From NCBI GenBank assembly GCA_009886755.1, contig QXYU01000048.1:1-41169 (forward strand): a stretch of 41,169 nucleotides of DNA, given 5' to 3'. Shown here in pieces: positions 3,642 to 9,768 of the stretch. This stretch comes from Flavobacteriaceae bacterium. Lineage in GTDB: Bacteria; Bacteroidota; Bacteroidia; Flavobacteriales; Flavobacteriaceae. How positions within the stretch are numbered: the first letter of the stretch is position 1; each line of letters opens with the position of its first letter. The notes beneath the pieces were generated by a model. That model was given only the letters and a program-made list of their open reading frames with translations. It was not told the origin of the DNA and made no database searches. The translations under genes and the position numbers were made by a program.

Positions 3642-3671
3642 AAAGTCGCGGAAAAAAGTATCTTTCTTGTG

Positions 3672-4574
3672 ATGAAAATAAGTATACCATTCTTTCTTGC
3701 ACTTTTATTGGTGGCCTGTCAACCTGCTCAGGAAAAGCATACGGACGGCTTGCAGAAAAGTACGGTGGGCTTGAGTCAAGATTTCAAATCCTATTGGTTT
3801 GACGGAACCGCTGAGATTTCTTCCTATGTCCTACAACAATCCCGCTATGGCGCACTTCGCGAAGGAACGGCTGTTTTGATCTATGTAACGGAAGATTTTC
3901 TAACCGATACGCAAGTAAAAGCCAACCAAAAGTCAAAAGCATCCCGAAGCGTTTTAAAACTAAACCGACAAAAGAATTTCCTGACGGGAATTTATCCTTA
4001 TTCCATCATGAGTAGTAGTTTTACCTATCTCGGTTGGGAACCGCGTTTGGCAAAAACAACCGCTTCACTCCAAGAGTGGTGCGGGCAAAGCTATTTACAG
4101 TTAAATCAGAAGAATCAAATGGTGCTGCAAAGCCATTCCTATTTTGAAGGCGAAGCCGATCAGAAAATACTTTTCCCCAAAGAAACCCTTACGGAGGATG
4201 AGGTATGGAACCGCATTCGTCTACATCCCGAACAACTCCCTACGGGTGCTTTTCAACTACTTCCCAGTTTGGAATTGCTCCGACTGAATCATTGGCCGCT
4301 GGAAACTGTTGCCGTTAGCGCACAACTCATTCGAAACGATGGTATCAGTATTTACGCCCTTCGCTTTCCCAGTTTGAAACGCAGCTTAAGTATCCGTTTC
4401 CAAACGGAAAGTCCTCACCGTATTGAAGGCTGGGAAGACCGTTCTGATCGAGGAGCCGACTACACCACCACCGCCACCCACTTGAAGACCGAAAAGCTCC
4501 CTTACTGGAAACTCAATCGCCCTGGAGACGAACAATACAGGAGCCAACTTCAATTACCCCATAAAAGCCCCTGA
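3672..4574 (+). CDS. Lipoprotein of unknown function
   Basis: A protein of 300 residues starting MKISIPFFLALLLVACQPAQ, a clear lipoprotein signal with lipobox LVAC and the lipidated cysteine at residue 16. The mature part is mostly beta-rich and has no enzyme motif that I recognise. It sits 30 bases after maf on the same strand; in related genomes a lipoprotein of similar size follows maf and has been mislabelled as a septum formation inhibitor, apparently from its neighbour (recollection, not tested). A GTG three bases upstream is a possible alternative start. Location is probably the periplasmic side of the inner membrane or the outer membrane. Confidence 0.75.
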   Translation: MKISIPFFLALLLVACQPAQEKHTDGLQKSTVGLSQDFKSYWFDGTAEISSYVLQQSRYGALREGTAVLIYVTEDFLTDTQVKANQKSKASRSVLKLNRQKNFLTGIYPYSIMSSSFTYLGWEPRLAKTTASLQEWCGQSYLQLNQKNQMVLQSHSYFEGEADQKILFPKETLTEDEVWNRIRLHPEQLPTGAFQLLPSLELLRLNHWPLETVAVSAQLIRNDGISIYALRFPSLKRSLSIRFQTESPHRIEGWEDRSDRGADYTTTATHLKTEKLPYWKLNRPGDEQYRSQLQLPHKSP

Positions 4575-4620: not shown

Positions 4621-7062
4621 ATGAAAAAATACACCCTAATCATTCTGATATTTAGTACTTTATTCGCAAAGGCCCAATCGGCAGCAACCTTGTATCATAA
4701 CTTACAAAAGTTGAATTTTCTGGGATCTGTACTCTATGTCGCGGCCCATCCTGATGATGAAAACACAGCCTTAATTTCGCACTTTGCCAATCATGTCGAT
4801 GCCGAAGCAGCCTACCTCTCCCTCACTCGCGGTGATGGAGGGCAAAATCTGATCGGTACGGAACTTCGCGAACAGCTAGGTGTGATCCGAACCAACGAAT
4901 TGTTAGCGGCTCGTAACATTGACGGAGGGCAGCAATTTTTTAGTTCCGCAGTTGACTTTGGGTACTCCAAACATCCCGATGAAACCTTACAGATATGGGA
5001 TAAAAAGCAGATTCTTGGCGAAGTCGTTGCTCGTATTCGCGCCTTTCAACCCGATATCATCATCCATCGATTTGATCATCGTACGCCGGGACGCACCCAT
5101 GGGCATCACACCGCATCAGCACTTTTGGGTTATGAAGCTTTTGACCTAACCAACAATCCCAAAAGCTATCCCGAACAACTTAAGCAGTACGAGCCTTGGC
5201 AAGTAAAACGACAATTTTTTAACACCTCATGGTGGTTTTATGGCAGTCAAGAACGTTTTGAAAAAGCAGACAAAACGAATCTATTAGCCTTAGAAATCGG
5301 GAATTACAACTCGCTCTTGGGGCGTTCCAATAGTCAACTCGCTGCGGCCAGTCGAAGTTCTCACAAGTCACAAGGATTTGGTTCTGCACCCCGCTTGGGT
5401 TCCCGAACAGAATATGTTGAATTGATACAAGGTGATCGCCCGAAAGGAAATGATCCTTTTGAAGGTATTGATACTAGCTGGAGTCGTATAGCCGGTGGGG
5501 AAAAGGTTGGAACGCTTGTCGCTGCCGCTATCGCTGAATTTGATTTTAAAGCTCCTTCCAAAAGTCTTAATCGCCTTATTGAAATTCACCAAGCCATCGA
5601 TCGTCTAGCGCCCTCTGTCTGGAAAACCCGAAAAGCTAGGGCCACCGAAAAGTTGATTAAAGCCTGTGTCGGCTTAACACTCCAACTTAATGCAGAAACT
5701 CCTTATGGAGTCGCTGGAGAGTCTGTTGCCATCACTTTCAATGGCGTACAGCAAAGCAATCATCTTTTGGTTATCGAAAAAATAGGAGAAACGGCGCTTG
5801 AACAAAGCCTCAAGCCCAACACAGCATTCAGCAATTCCTTTTCTATTCCTCTGGGAAATGAACTCACAACGCCTTATTGGTTGATGCAAAAGGGAACTTT
5901 GGGAAGTTTCAATAGCTCCAACAAAAGGCTGCAAGGATTGCCCGCAACCCCACCTCTAACCCTCAGCATTCATCTCCGTATAAACGGCACTCCCTTTGTT
6001 TGGAAAGAAGCAGTTCAATACCGCATCACCGACCCCGTCCGTGGGGAAGTCGTGACACCTTTTCACATCCTCCCTCATTTGGGGGTAAACTTCCAGAAAA
6101 ACGTTCATCTTTTTCCCGATCTAGGGTCACAGCGCATCCAACTGGAGGTGACCAATTATGGAAAATCGTTTTCGGGTGAGGTGGAACTCTGCTTCCCGGA
6201 AGGTTGGGAAATCGACCGAGCCAAAAAACCAATTGAATTCAATCAAAGAGGAAACGCTGCCTTTTTGTCCTATGAATTACATCCCACCCAAAAAGCCAAA
6301 AGTGGCCGTATGAGCCCTTTGGTACATCAAAACGGAAAGATCCTAACTCCTTATGCCGTTCAGCAGATTGACTACGATCATATTCCCAAGCAATACGTGG
6401 CTCACCCTAGCGAAGCACAACTGGTGCGCTTGGATTTGTCCTTACCGGATAAAAAAGTAGGCTATATTATGGGAGCCGGCGATTTGGTTGCCAAAAACCT
6501 TGAAGCCATTGGATTGCCCATTGAAGCGATTGACCTAGAGACAGTCACCCAGGAAACAATAAACACCTATGACACCATATTGCTTGGGATCCGTGCTTAT
6601 AATGTTCTAGAATCTTTGATCTATAAAAACCAATTGCTTTTTGATTTTGCCCAGCAAGGGGGAACGCTTATTGTGCAATACACCACCAGCCGCCGCATGA
6701 AAACAAAAAAAATCCTTCCCTACCCTATTCAATTGTCTCGGGATCGGGTTACGGACGAAAATAGCCCTGTACGTTTGCTTCAACCCAATCATCCTGTTTT
6801 TAACAAACCGCATCAAATCACCTCATACGATTTTGACGGCTGGGTACAAGAACGTGGGCTCTATTTTGCCAACGAATGGGATGCTGCTTACACTCCTTTG
6901 CTAGGAATGCAAGACCCAGGAGAAATTGAGAAAAAGGGAAGTCTATTGGTTGCTACCCACGGAAAAGGAAAAGTGATCTATACGGGATTGAGTTTTTTCC
7001 GGGAACTACCCGCCGGAGTACCCGGTGCCTATCGTTTACTCCTAAACCTAATCAATTACTAG
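4621..7062 (+). CDS. Secreted PIG-L family deacetylase with C-terminal glutamine-amidotransferase-like domain
   Basis: A protein of 813 residues with a signal peptide (MKKYTLIILIFSTLFAKAQS). The N-terminal 250 residues are a PIG-L/LmbE metal-dependent de-N-acetylase domain with AHPDDE at 42-47 (H43 and D46 are expected zinc ligands) and HGHH at 160-163 (third ligand). A beta-rich middle part follows, and the last 200 residues, with GYIMGAGDLVAKNLEAIG and YDTILLGIRAYN, look like a class I glutamine amidotransferase or flavodoxin-like fold without obvious catalytic residues. PIG-L enzymes remove acetyl groups from N-acetylglucosamine conjugates. It is followed, with one base between, by a small membrane ORF and a sodium:solute symporter, which suggests deacetylation of an amino sugar outside the cytoplasm followed by uptake (inference). 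Confidence 0.85.
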   Translation: MKKYTLIILIFSTLFAKAQSAATLYHNLQKLNFLGSVLYVAAHPDDENTALISHFANHVDAEAAYLSLTRGDGGQNLIGTELREQLGVIRTNELLAARNIDGGQQFFSSAVDFGYSKHPDETLQIWDKKQILGEVVARIRAFQPDIIIHRFDHRTPGRTHGHHTASALLGYEAFDLTNNPKSYPEQLKQYEPWQVKRQFFNTSWWFYGSQERFEKADKTNLLALEIGNYNSLLGRSNSQLAAASRSSHKSQGFGSAPRLGSRTEYVELIQGDRPKGNDPFEGIDTSWSRIAGGEKVGTLVAAAIAEFDFKAPSKSLNRLIEIHQAIDRLAPSVWKTRKARATEKLIKACVGLTLQLNAETPYGVAGESVAITFNGVQQSNHLLVIEKIGETALEQSLKPNTAFSNSFSIPLGNELTTPYWLMQKGTLGSFNSSNKRLQGLPATPPLTLSIHLRINGTPFVWKEAVQYRITDPVRGEVVTPFHILPHLGVNFQKNVHLFPDLGSQRIQLEVTNYGKSFSGEVELCFPEGWEIDRAKKPIEFNQRGNAAFLSYELHPTQKAKSGRMSPLVHQNGKILTPYAVQQIDYDHIPKQYVAHPSEAQLVRLDLSLPDKKVGYIMGAGDLVAKNLEAIGLPIEAIDLETVTQETINTYDTILLGIRAYNVLESLIYKNQLLFDFAQQGGTLIVQYTTSRRMKTKKILPYPIQLSRDRVTDENSPVRLLQPNHPVFNKPHQITSYDFDGWVQERGLYFANEWDAAYTPLLGMQDPGEIEKKGSLLVATHGKGKVIYTGLSFFRELPAGVPGAYRLLLNLINY

Positions 7063-7063
7063 C

Positions 7064-7153
7064 ATGGACCAACGCATTTATCTTTATCTAACACTTGTAA
7101 ACATCCTCTACTGGGGCTTGATGGGTTGGTTTACATATCAATTCAGTCTATGA
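7064..7153 (+). CDS. Candidate 29-residue membrane peptide coupled to the symporter
   Basis: ATG 7064 follows the deacetylase stop (7060-7062) by one base and opens a 29-codon frame, MDQRIYLYLTLVNILYWGLM then GWFTYQFSL, ending in TGA 7151-7153 that overlaps the symporter ATG at 7150 as ATGA. The peptide is one hydrophobic span with a charged N-terminus. Tight packing on both sides and the ATGA overlap favour real translation and translational coupling. Small membrane partners encoded beside solute:sodium symporters exist elsewhere (YhdT with PanF, YjcH with ActP), but this peptide is shorter and I do not recognise it. It is below usual gene-caller length limits. Confidence 0.5.
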   Translation: MDQRIYLYLTLVNILYWGLMGWFTYQFSL

Positions 7154-8811
7154 GCAGCATTGATTGGTTTATTTTAATCACCACCCTTTTGGGGATTGTC
7201 GGTTATGGAGTATGGAAAAACCGCCAACAAGAGAGCATCCAAAGCTATATTCGAGGGGGAAACCAAAGTCGCTGGTGGACGGTGGGACTCTCTGTTATGG
7301 CCACTCAAGCCAGTGCCATCACATTTCTCTCCACTCCGGGGCAAGCCTTCCACGATGGGATGGGCTTTGTGCAATTCTATTTTGGGTTGCCTTTTGCCGT
7401 GATCTTGATTTGCCTGTTTTTCTTACCAATCTACCACCGATTAAATGTCTTTACCGCCTATGAATTTCTTGAAGAACGATTTAATTGGCAGACAAGAACC
7501 CTCACTGCAATACTCTTTTTAATTCAAAGGGGGCTGGCTGCGGGAATTACCATTTATGCTCCGGCGATCATTCTCAGTGCCATTTTAGGCTGGCCACTCA
7601 AAGGGCTGGTCATTGGCATCGGTTTGTTGGTGATTCTCTACACCGTGATCGGCGGGACACAGGCTGTCAATGTTACCCAAAAGCAGCAAATGACTGTGAT
7701 TTTTCTGGGTTTGTTTGTTGCCTTTTTTAGCATCTTATCCGCTTTTCCCGAAAGCATCAATTTCACCCAAGCTATAAACATTGCAGGCGCCAGTGGCAAA
7801 CTTCAAGTGCTCGATTTTAGTTTTGACCCCAACAATCGCTACACTTTTTGGAGTGGCATAACTGGAGGGCTTTTTTTAGCACTCTCCTATTTTGGCACCG
7901 ACCAATCACAGGTGCAACGTTATCTTTCGGGCAAATCCTTAAAAGAAAGCCAAATGGGACTGCTAATGAATGGCTTTCTGAAAGTTCCATTGCAATTCTT
8001 TATCCTTTTGGTGGGAGTGATGGTTTTTGTGTTTTACCAATTCCAACCCGCTCCCCTCCACTTCAATCCGCAAACGGAAAAAGCCATACAAGGAACAGAA
8101 CAGGCCTCCGCTTTTGATCGCTTAGAGTCCGAAAACACCCGTACGCAAAAAGCCATAGCTTCCCTACTGCTTCGTTCGGATTTTGAAACAGATTCCCAAG
8201 CCCAACAACTATACCAACAATTGAATCGAGAAAACCAGCAGCAACGGGATGCAGCAAAACAGTTATTGGCCCGAGCAAAAACAGGCGTAACGGTTAACGA
8301 TAAAGATTTTGTCTTTATCACTTTTATCTTGGATCATCTGCCCGTAGGTGTTATCGGTTTGCTGCTCGCCATGATTTTCTCAGCTGCAATGAGTTCTACC
8401 GCCTCTGAGCTCAATGCGCTATCCGCCACCACCTTAGTAGATCTCTACCAGCGCAATCGACCAGGGCAAAGTGAATTGCATTATGTCCAAGCGGCTAAAG
8501 GGTTTACCCTTTTGTGGGGGCTTATTGCCATTGGTTTTGCTTCCGTGGGAAATCTGTTTGAAAACCTCATTCAATTGGTCAATATTATTGGTTCGGTATT
8601 TTACGGAACCATCCTAGGGATTTTCTTGGTCGCTTTTTTCTTTAAATCCATCCAAGGTAAAGCCGTGTTCTGGGCGGCTATAATGTCAGAAATTGCCATA
8701 CTATATATCTATTCTCAAGACTGGGTTGGATACCTCTGGCTCAATGCCATTGGAGCGGTGCTCACTATTTTATTAGCCCACCTAATCGCCCTGATACAGC
8801 GATCTCGGTAA
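7150..8811 (+). CDS. Sodium:solute symporter family protein
   Basis: A membrane protein of 553 residues beginning MSSIDWFILITTLLGIVGYG. It has about 13 hydrophobic segments and the SSS hallmark stretches WTVGLSVMATQASAITFLS near residue 45 and the GGTQAVNVTQKQQ region near residue 180. Between two late membrane segments there is a hydrophilic, helix-forming insert of about 95 residues (roughly 305-395), rich in Gln, Glu and Arg. The ATG at 7150 is preferred over an upstream TTG at 7126 because the extra residues fall inside the preceding small ORF and do not resemble the family. Substrate is unknown; the adjacent secreted PIG-L deacetylase suggests a sugar or amino sugar derivative (inference). 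Confidence 0.88.
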   Translation: MSSIDWFILITTLLGIVGYGVWKNRQQESIQSYIRGGNQSRWWTVGLSVMATQASAITFLSTPGQAFHDGMGFVQFYFGLPFAVILICLFFLPIYHRLNVFTAYEFLEERFNWQTRTLTAILFLIQRGLAAGITIYAPAIILSAILGWPLKGLVIGIGLLVILYTVIGGTQAVNVTQKQQMTVIFLGLFVAFFSILSAFPESINFTQAINIAGASGKLQVLDFSFDPNNRYTFWSGITGGLFLALSYFGTDQSQVQRYLSGKSLKESQMGLLMNGFLKVPLQFFILLVGVMVFVFYQFQPAPLHFNPQTEKAIQGTEQASAFDRLESENTRTQKAIASLLLRSDFETDSQAQQLYQQLNRENQQQRDAAKQLLARAKTGVTVNDKDFVFITFILDHLPVGVIGLLLAMIFSAAMSSTASELNALSATTLVDLYQRNRPGQSELHYVQAAKGFTLLWGLIAIGFASVGNLFENLIQLVNIIGSVFYGTILGIFLVAFFFKSIQGKAVFWAAIMSEIAILYIYSQDWVGYLWLNAIGAVLTILLAHLIALIQRSR

Positions 8812-8943: not shown

Positions 8944-9768
8944 ATGAACAGCTGCTATCATTGCGGTTACCCAATATATCATCCTGTATGCTTTCACTTA
9001 AAGTCTTCTTGTTGTCAAGGCTGTAAAACCGTTTACGAGCTTTTTACGGCCCATGGTTTGACAAATTATTATCAGCTAGAAAAAAAGCCTGGGCTTAAAC
9101 CCACAAGAGGTCGCTATCAATACCTGAAAAAGGAGTCTATTGTCAATCAACTGCTAGAGTTTAAAGAGACTGAGCTTCAAATCATCCTTTTGTCACTTCC
9201 CGCCATTCATTGTAGTTCCTGCATTTGGATTTTAGAAAAGCTCCCACAGCTTCATTCAGGCATCCTAAGAGCAACGGTGAATTTTCCAAAAAAACAATTG
9301 CGTCTCAGCTACGATCCCCAAAAAACCACTTTGTTTGAATTGGTTGAATTCTTGGCTTCCATCGGGTATGCCCCGACCCTTTCCATGAATGCGTTGGCCG
9401 TTGTGCCCAAAAAACAAAATCGACGTTTGCTATATCAATTAGGCGTGGCAGGCTTTGCCTTTGGAAACATTATGTTTCTTTCCCTACCGGAATATTTTAC
9501 AGCAAACGAATTTTGGTTAGACCGATACAAATATGTCTTTCGTTGGCTGATCTTTTTCTTTTCGCTGCCCGTGCTTTTTTTTGCGGGTTGGGACTACCTC
9601 AAGGGCGCTTACCTCAGCATTAAAAGCAAATGGATTATCATCGATGTACCTGTAGCCTTAGGGATGATCGCACTCTTTATTCGTTCTTTTTTAGCTTTAC
9701 TTTTTGATTGGGGATCTGGTTACTTTGATTCCCTTTCGATTTTGATAAATAGATGGAAAGAAAAATAA
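8944..9768 (+). pseudogene. Truncated CcoI/FixI-type copper P-type ATPase (N-terminal third only)
   Basis: The 274-residue product carries the N-terminal heavy-metal-binding segment (CYHCG, then CCQGC; C4, C7, C24, C27), an HMA domain with CSSC at 90-93, and the first membrane segments (about 163-182, 199-216, 231-256). CcoI-type ATPases, which supply copper for cbb3 oxidase assembly, are usually near 800 residues. Here the frame ends soon after GYFDSLS with ILINRWKEK, where relatives have a longer stretch leading into the actuator domain. The CPC metal site, phosphorylation motif DKTGT and nucleotide-binding domain are absent, and nothing downstream restores them: a terminator and the oppositely oriented DUF2911 gene follow at once. 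Transport is therefore impossible. A large deletion or rearrangement end is the simplest reading. Confidence 0.75.

Follow-up and report, generated by a model that had tools for sequence, protein, structure and literature searches.

What is encoded in the short gap between a PIG-L family deacetylase gene and a sodium:solute symporter gene is the question raised by this locus, which lies in contig QXYU01000048.1 of a Flavobacteriaceae bacterium (assembly GCA_009886755.1; positions 1 to 41,169 of the forward strand, a stretch of 41,169 nucleotides referred to here as the window). The first-pass annotation proposed that a 29-residue membrane peptide occupies this gap exactly, that its stop codon overlaps the symporter start and that it belongs with the short single-helix proteins that assist transporters.

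A small reading frame between two larger genes

The small open reading frame (ORF) begins with an ATG at 7064, one base after the PIG-L stop codon TAG (7060-7062), and ends with a TGA at 7151-7153; the position and the overlap match the first-pass coordinates exactly (Table 1). The overlap makes translational coupling of the small ORF and the symporter possible. When the 87-nt gap was shuffled, the frame stayed open in 16% of cases, and it both stayed open and carried an ATG within codons 1-2 in 0.6%; gap geometry alone is therefore mildly surprising and suggestive, and conservation is decisive.

Table 1. Features of the window around the small ORF.
Feature	Position	Strand	Length	Description
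301-aa protein	3669-4574		301 aa	between Maf and PIG-L; lipoprotein-like N-terminus (by eye)
PIG-L family deacetylase	4621-7062	+	813 aa	PF02585, E 2.5e-14; usual but dispensable upstream neighbour
Small ORF	7064-7153	+	29 aa	MDQRIYLYLTLVNILYWGLMGWFTYQFSL; single predicted transmembrane helix; proposed symporter accessory subunit
ATGA stop/start overlap	7150-7153	+		small ORF with symporter, from the sequence
Sodium:solute symporter (SSS/SLC5)	7150-8811	+	553 aa	PF00474, TIGR00813; candidate partner of the small-ORF product
Heavy-metal P-type ATPase, N-terminal part	8944-9768		274 aa	metal-binding and HMA domains

The symporter is assigned to the SSS/SLC5 family by its SSF domain (PF00474, E 1.4e-38, 133 bits against a cut-off of 22.8; TIGR00813, 241.6 bits against a cut-off of 184), with the corresponding fold predicted for the orthologue at locus L082. 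The PIG-L protein has an N-terminus that appears signal-like by eye, and it had no match among PDB sequences up to E 0.01. Upstream of it, the 301-aa protein matched nothing in Pfam or NCBIfam at E 0.001 or below. Downstream of the symporter, no catalytic domain was matched in the frame of the ATPase ORF, which therefore looks truncated or frameshifted.

Conservation and selection of the reading frame

The near set used for comparison comprised the best 80 symporter-orthologue loci of a larger number found, mostly from Flavobacteriaceae. A homologous short ORF directly precedes the orthologous symporter in 80/80 of these loci (L027 and L083 by eye); the profile that called the small ORFs was built from 11 seeds, 10 of them from these loci. 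With the starts chosen, the encoded proteins are 28-43 aa long, and the ORFs end anywhere from 7 nt inside the symporter gene to 72 nt before it. The 81-row alignment of the window and the near loci, in which the row of L083 starts one codon before the ATG, constitutes profile A1; its near-invariant residues are Y6, N13, Y16 and F20 in window numbering, the window itself having Met at position 20.

Over 73 close pairs, which share sequences and are not independent, pN/pS was 0.25 in frame versus 0.90 and 1.37 in the shifted frames, and pN was below pS in 73/73 pairs in frame versus 39/73 and 14/73 in the shifted frames. The symporter gave a pN/pS of 0.13 over the same pairs. In the identity band of 0.5-0.65, pN was below pS in 1500 of 1508 pairs, and in the closest band (12 pairs) the single pair with pN above pS, L057/L064, carries a single difference. 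The conserved place and the in-frame selection indicate that the small ORF codes for a protein, and the conservation of the frame with synonymous bias on which the first-pass annotation had staked the peptide is thus found.

An open frame arising by chance in so short a gap, for which the proportion of shuffled gaps that stay open might have spoken, is refuted by this conservation together with the in-frame selection and retains practically no probability.

The copy in the window ranks among the more diverged and less typical members, lacking the consensus F-Y pair and the pre-helix Trp. Compared with its nearest relative, L009, it gives a pS of 0.27 and a pN of 0.12, against averages of 0.33 and 0.05 in equally close pairs, and this pair is more weakly constrained than those.

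Distribution, gene neighbours and separated copies

The Bacteroidota were sampled by an even draw of 296 genomes, in which the symporter (symporter-positive at E<=1e-70) was present in 114. Profile A1, the narrower of the profiles, matched 55 places in 53 of the 296 genomes at E<=0.01, including 48 directly before the symporter, 4 separated cases and 3 that are apparently chance matches. In the window's family, both genes occur in 29 of 30 genomes and neither in the remaining one. Symporter loci were also taken from the 67 positive genomes in which A1 had no match next to the symporter (the distant loci), and an iterated profile placed the small ORF in 51 of these, giving the broader consensus W...Y..V...L...I.LF..FT..F. 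The bit scores of the final round are in-sample; in round 0, which was out of sample, 39/67 distant loci scored above 12 bits, with a top null score of 6.2 bits among 770 scored reverse-strand ORFs, a null not matched for hydrophobicity.

Across the 114 symporter genomes, the small ORF is adjacent in 98 (47 by A1 and 51 by the iterated profile), separated in 5, ambiguous in 7 (L153, L191 and five of family f37) and missing in 4 (G162, G144, G113 and G136), so it is not universally required. In the last three of these genomes (L194, L196 and L190 being the loci of G113, G136 and G144), the PIG-L stop directly overlaps the symporter start, no small ORF was found between the two genes, and the loci represent natural controls. 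Five loci of one distant family (L195, L197, L198, L201 and L202) carry a different short hydrophobic ORF immediately upstream of the symporter ATG, one with almost no profile score; these ORFs are possibly strongly diverged members or a replacement.

A second profile, A2, was built from 60 sequences, namely 55 of the 66 members outside L009-L088 (11 near-duplicates having been left out by eye), the window and four near members. Strong A2 matches (E<=1.4e-5) were present in 102/114 symporter-positive versus 1/182 symporter-negative genomes, counts that are not adjusted for shared ancestry and that involve many sequences included in A2 itself. G290, a member by the iterated profile, had no match with A2. 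The sole negative genome with a strong A2 match, G027, encodes PIG-L and the small ORF followed by symporter remnants (L213, 2427-2890), with the first and last parts of the symporter in different frames and the middle missing, a state that may be genuine or may stem from faulty assembly.

An upstream PIG-L gene is present within 700 nt in 72/80 near loci and 35/67 distant loci. The eight near loci without it at this distance, six of them from Tenacibaculum and one with PIG-L 1173 nt upstream, keep the small ORF. The 67 distant loci divide into 31 with PIG-L as well as the small ORF, 20 with the small ORF but no PIG-L within 700 nt, 4 with PIG-L but no small ORF and 12 with neither; in 7 of those 20, PIG-L lies 734-1891 nt upstream, and in the other 13 no PIG-L was found within about 3 kb. 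The retention of the small ORF where PIG-L is absent points to the symporter as its partner. The genome of the window encodes several SSS paralogues, yet A1 gave one small-ORF match up to E 10, which ties the small gene to this symporter group; A2 adds two weak matches elsewhere in that genome (E 0.04 and 0.06).

The spacing of the two genes bears on whether the small ORF acts as a translated leader, in which translation of the ORF couples or tunes symporter translation and the peptide itself is of minor importance. Overlapping or abutting codons, which would speak for such a leader, are common: among the 81 near members the gap is -4 in 5 (window included), -1 in 21 and 0 in 13, and the 4-nt ATGA overlap is present in 33/51 distant members, whose symporter start codons were chosen by script and are probably wrong in some cases. 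However, the gap reaches 54-72 nt in 6/81 near members (overall range -7 to +72 nt), the amino-acid sequence is itself selected, with Tyr, Asn and aromatic positions kept, and five genomes have an intact ORF at a distance of 15 or 108 kb from the symporter. Four of these genomes belong to one genus (G026, G038, G054 and G100); there the symporter lies on the same strand, about 15 kb downstream, and the small ORF keeps the upstream gene of the intact-pair relative G163. The copies in these four genomes keep pN (0.01-0.06) below pS (0.04-0.33) in 6/6 pairs, these being small numbers from related sequences. In G275 an intact small ORF lies 108 kb from the symporter, and the gene before this ORF is 80% identical to the gene before the intact pair in G283. 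No new small ORF scored with the iterated profile upstream of the displaced symporters. This arrangement may reflect a split of the pair through insertion or relocation, and the intact peptide in two separated lineages favours a trans-acting protein over a cis-only leader, which we consider improbable.

In G100, the region of about 15 kb between the small ORF and the symporter (L209, 669-15817) is occupied by a gene cluster. By eye, we take its ORFs to encode a DASS-type transporter, SusC/SusD-like proteins, a regulator pair, a second PIG-L, a glucosamine-6-phosphate deaminase-like (NagB-like) protein, a ROK-like kinase and an MFS protein. This amino-sugar-like cluster gives a hint that an amino sugar may be the substrate of the symporter.

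Topology, known transporter partners and the proposed role

Hydropathy profiles of five members contain one membrane-type stretch each. The small ORF is coding and under selection, and its membrane-type peptide is tied to this symporter group. Lys and Arg average 3.07 in the N-tail and 0.40 in the C-tail, a charge bias that makes an N-in, C-out helix most likely, so that the N-terminus of the small protein would probably lie in the cytoplasm and its C-terminus outside.

This topology is relevant to the suggestion that the small ORF encodes an N-terminal helix split off from the symporter and rejoined to it by programmed frameshifting or read-through. SSS proteins have their N-terminus outside, with which a C-out peptide would be compatible, and the two genes share a frame in 28/80 near loci. 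Against such a fusion, the relative frame and the gap vary among loci and fully separated genes exist, and the variation makes it very unlikely.

A read-through model of L082 was computed with the stop codons as glycine, using 28 in-frame rows (L082 included) and 53 symporter-only rows, and has a mean pLDDT of 82.5 and a pTM of 0.81. Model residues 12-38 form one helix (pLDDT block means of 89, 86 and then 62), confidence falls at the C-terminal end of this helix, and the linker is disordered, mostly below 50. The covalent tether is artificial, and the model supports no claim about an interface. The symporter part is nearest to SiaT 5nva (Z 42.1, rmsd 2.4, 467 aligned residues, 27% identity), followed by SMCT1, NIS, CHT1 and the SGLTs. 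These SSS matches align the symporter part only, from model residue 58 or later, and a distant match, 6cse_C (Z 19.6), starts at model residue 8; a missing counterpart of the small helix among fold matches is not evidence for a new fold. Mean-field DCA between the small protein and the symporter (175 pairs, Neff 96) gave scattered top pairs, the best of which (z 7.4) joins small-protein Y35 and symporter V86 of L082. The top 60 pairs involve loops (17), model helix 379-406 (12) and helix 131-157 (7) and define no docking site.

Arg135 of SiaT has been reported to form a salt bridge with the carboxylate of sialic acid (PMC5931594) and aligns with an alanine in the partner symporter (phmmer, read by eye; identity is low and the alignment may slip). 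Judging from this one residue, sialic acid is an unlikely substrate of the partner symporter.

Pfam and NCBIfam scans of the 81 A1 and 60 A2 members gave weak, scattered matches only (best E about 0.003, at most three members each), with HMMER filters that drop most matches above E 0.1 and, for the A2 Pfam scan, with 25 of 42 weak families listed. No PDB sequence matched the A1 profile. YhdT/DUF997 (associated with PanF), DUF4212 and DUF485 proteins are small two-helix membrane proteins found near SSS genes, and these and the DUF3311 protein, also of two helices, are longer than the small protein, which at 28-43 aa has room for one helix. None of DUF3311, DUF997, DUF4212 and DUF485 was among all 13 Pfam families matched by the 81 A1 members up to E 10. 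DUF3311/MctP resembles the small ORF in being encoded beside an SSS permease, the DUF3311 protein adjoining MctP and changing in expression together with it (PMC9100948), but MctP belongs to another symporter subfamily.

By its length, its hydropathy and the L082 model, the small protein resembles the known single-helix transporter accessories, which are short and have one membrane helix. AcrZ, MgtS, MgtR and MgtU of enterobacteria are of similar size (about 28-49 aa) and act on transporters, AcrZ as a single helix on AcrB (PMC10710835), but these are other transporters than the symporter considered here. None of the four was among the weak Pfam and NCBIfam matches listed for A1 and A2.

A closer functional parallel is offered by human MAP17 (PDZK1IP1), which is larger and has an intracellular tail. 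MAP17 with SGLT2 or SGLT1 is, like the proposed pair, an auxiliary membrane protein of an SSS/SLC5 symporter, and differs in that its partner is an SGLT whereas that of the small protein is nearest to SiaT by fold. SGLT2 has been reported to require MAP17, which contacts helix M13 (PMC9616851). The MAP17 family (PF15807) had no match among the 81 A1 members, and one of the 60 A2 members matched at E 0.11. From these comparisons, the best reading is that the small protein would be analogous to, and not homologous with, MAP17.

A search of the open-licence PMC literature found no report of this small-protein family among the matches listed, and nothing for DUF4212; a term search of a review of prokaryotic SSS symporters (PMC7918813) found no mention of a subunit, an accessory or small membrane protein, a DUF, YhdT or a single transmembrane helix. 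Single-helix partners of transporters are a known kind of protein; what appears to be new is this family and its link with a bacterial SSS symporter.

Taken with the gene pairing, we consider it likely that the small protein is a dedicated single-helix accessory subunit of the SiaT/NIS-like SSS symporter encoded directly after it. The first-pass suggestion of a short transporter-assisting helix fits the conserved and selected frame, the one membrane-type stretch and the closer association of the small ORF with the symporter than with PIG-L. Through the overlapping or abutting stop and start codons, the small protein and the symporter would be made together. The small helix may then pack against the symporter bundle, and may be needed for symporter stability, membrane insertion or full activity, by analogy with MAP17 and SGLT2.

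The peptide might instead have a regulatory role, either inhibiting the symporter or directing its turnover through a protease (FtsH, for instance), in the manner of MgtR or MgtS. Other transporters are regulated in this way by proteins of about 28-49 aa (PMC10710835), but encoding together with the symporter in 98/114 genomes, with no sign of separate control, is a near-constant pairing that fits a subunit better than a switch, and a regulatory role is unlikely.

The accessory-subunit reading extends, at somewhat less than even probability, to a two-chain transporter across much of Bacteroidota, in which an extra helix of about 30-45 codons would be supplied in trans and required for folding or transport. 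If true, this two-chain symporter would be an independently evolved bacterial counterpart of SGLT2-MAP17. The small-protein family is widespread across Bacteroidota and without a Pfam or NCBIfam match, and its clear candidate partner makes its function directly testable. The pairing also suggests that cloning the large symporter gene alone may omit a subunit, and a prokaryotic single-helix partner would provide a simple model for why an SLC5 carrier needs an extra helix.
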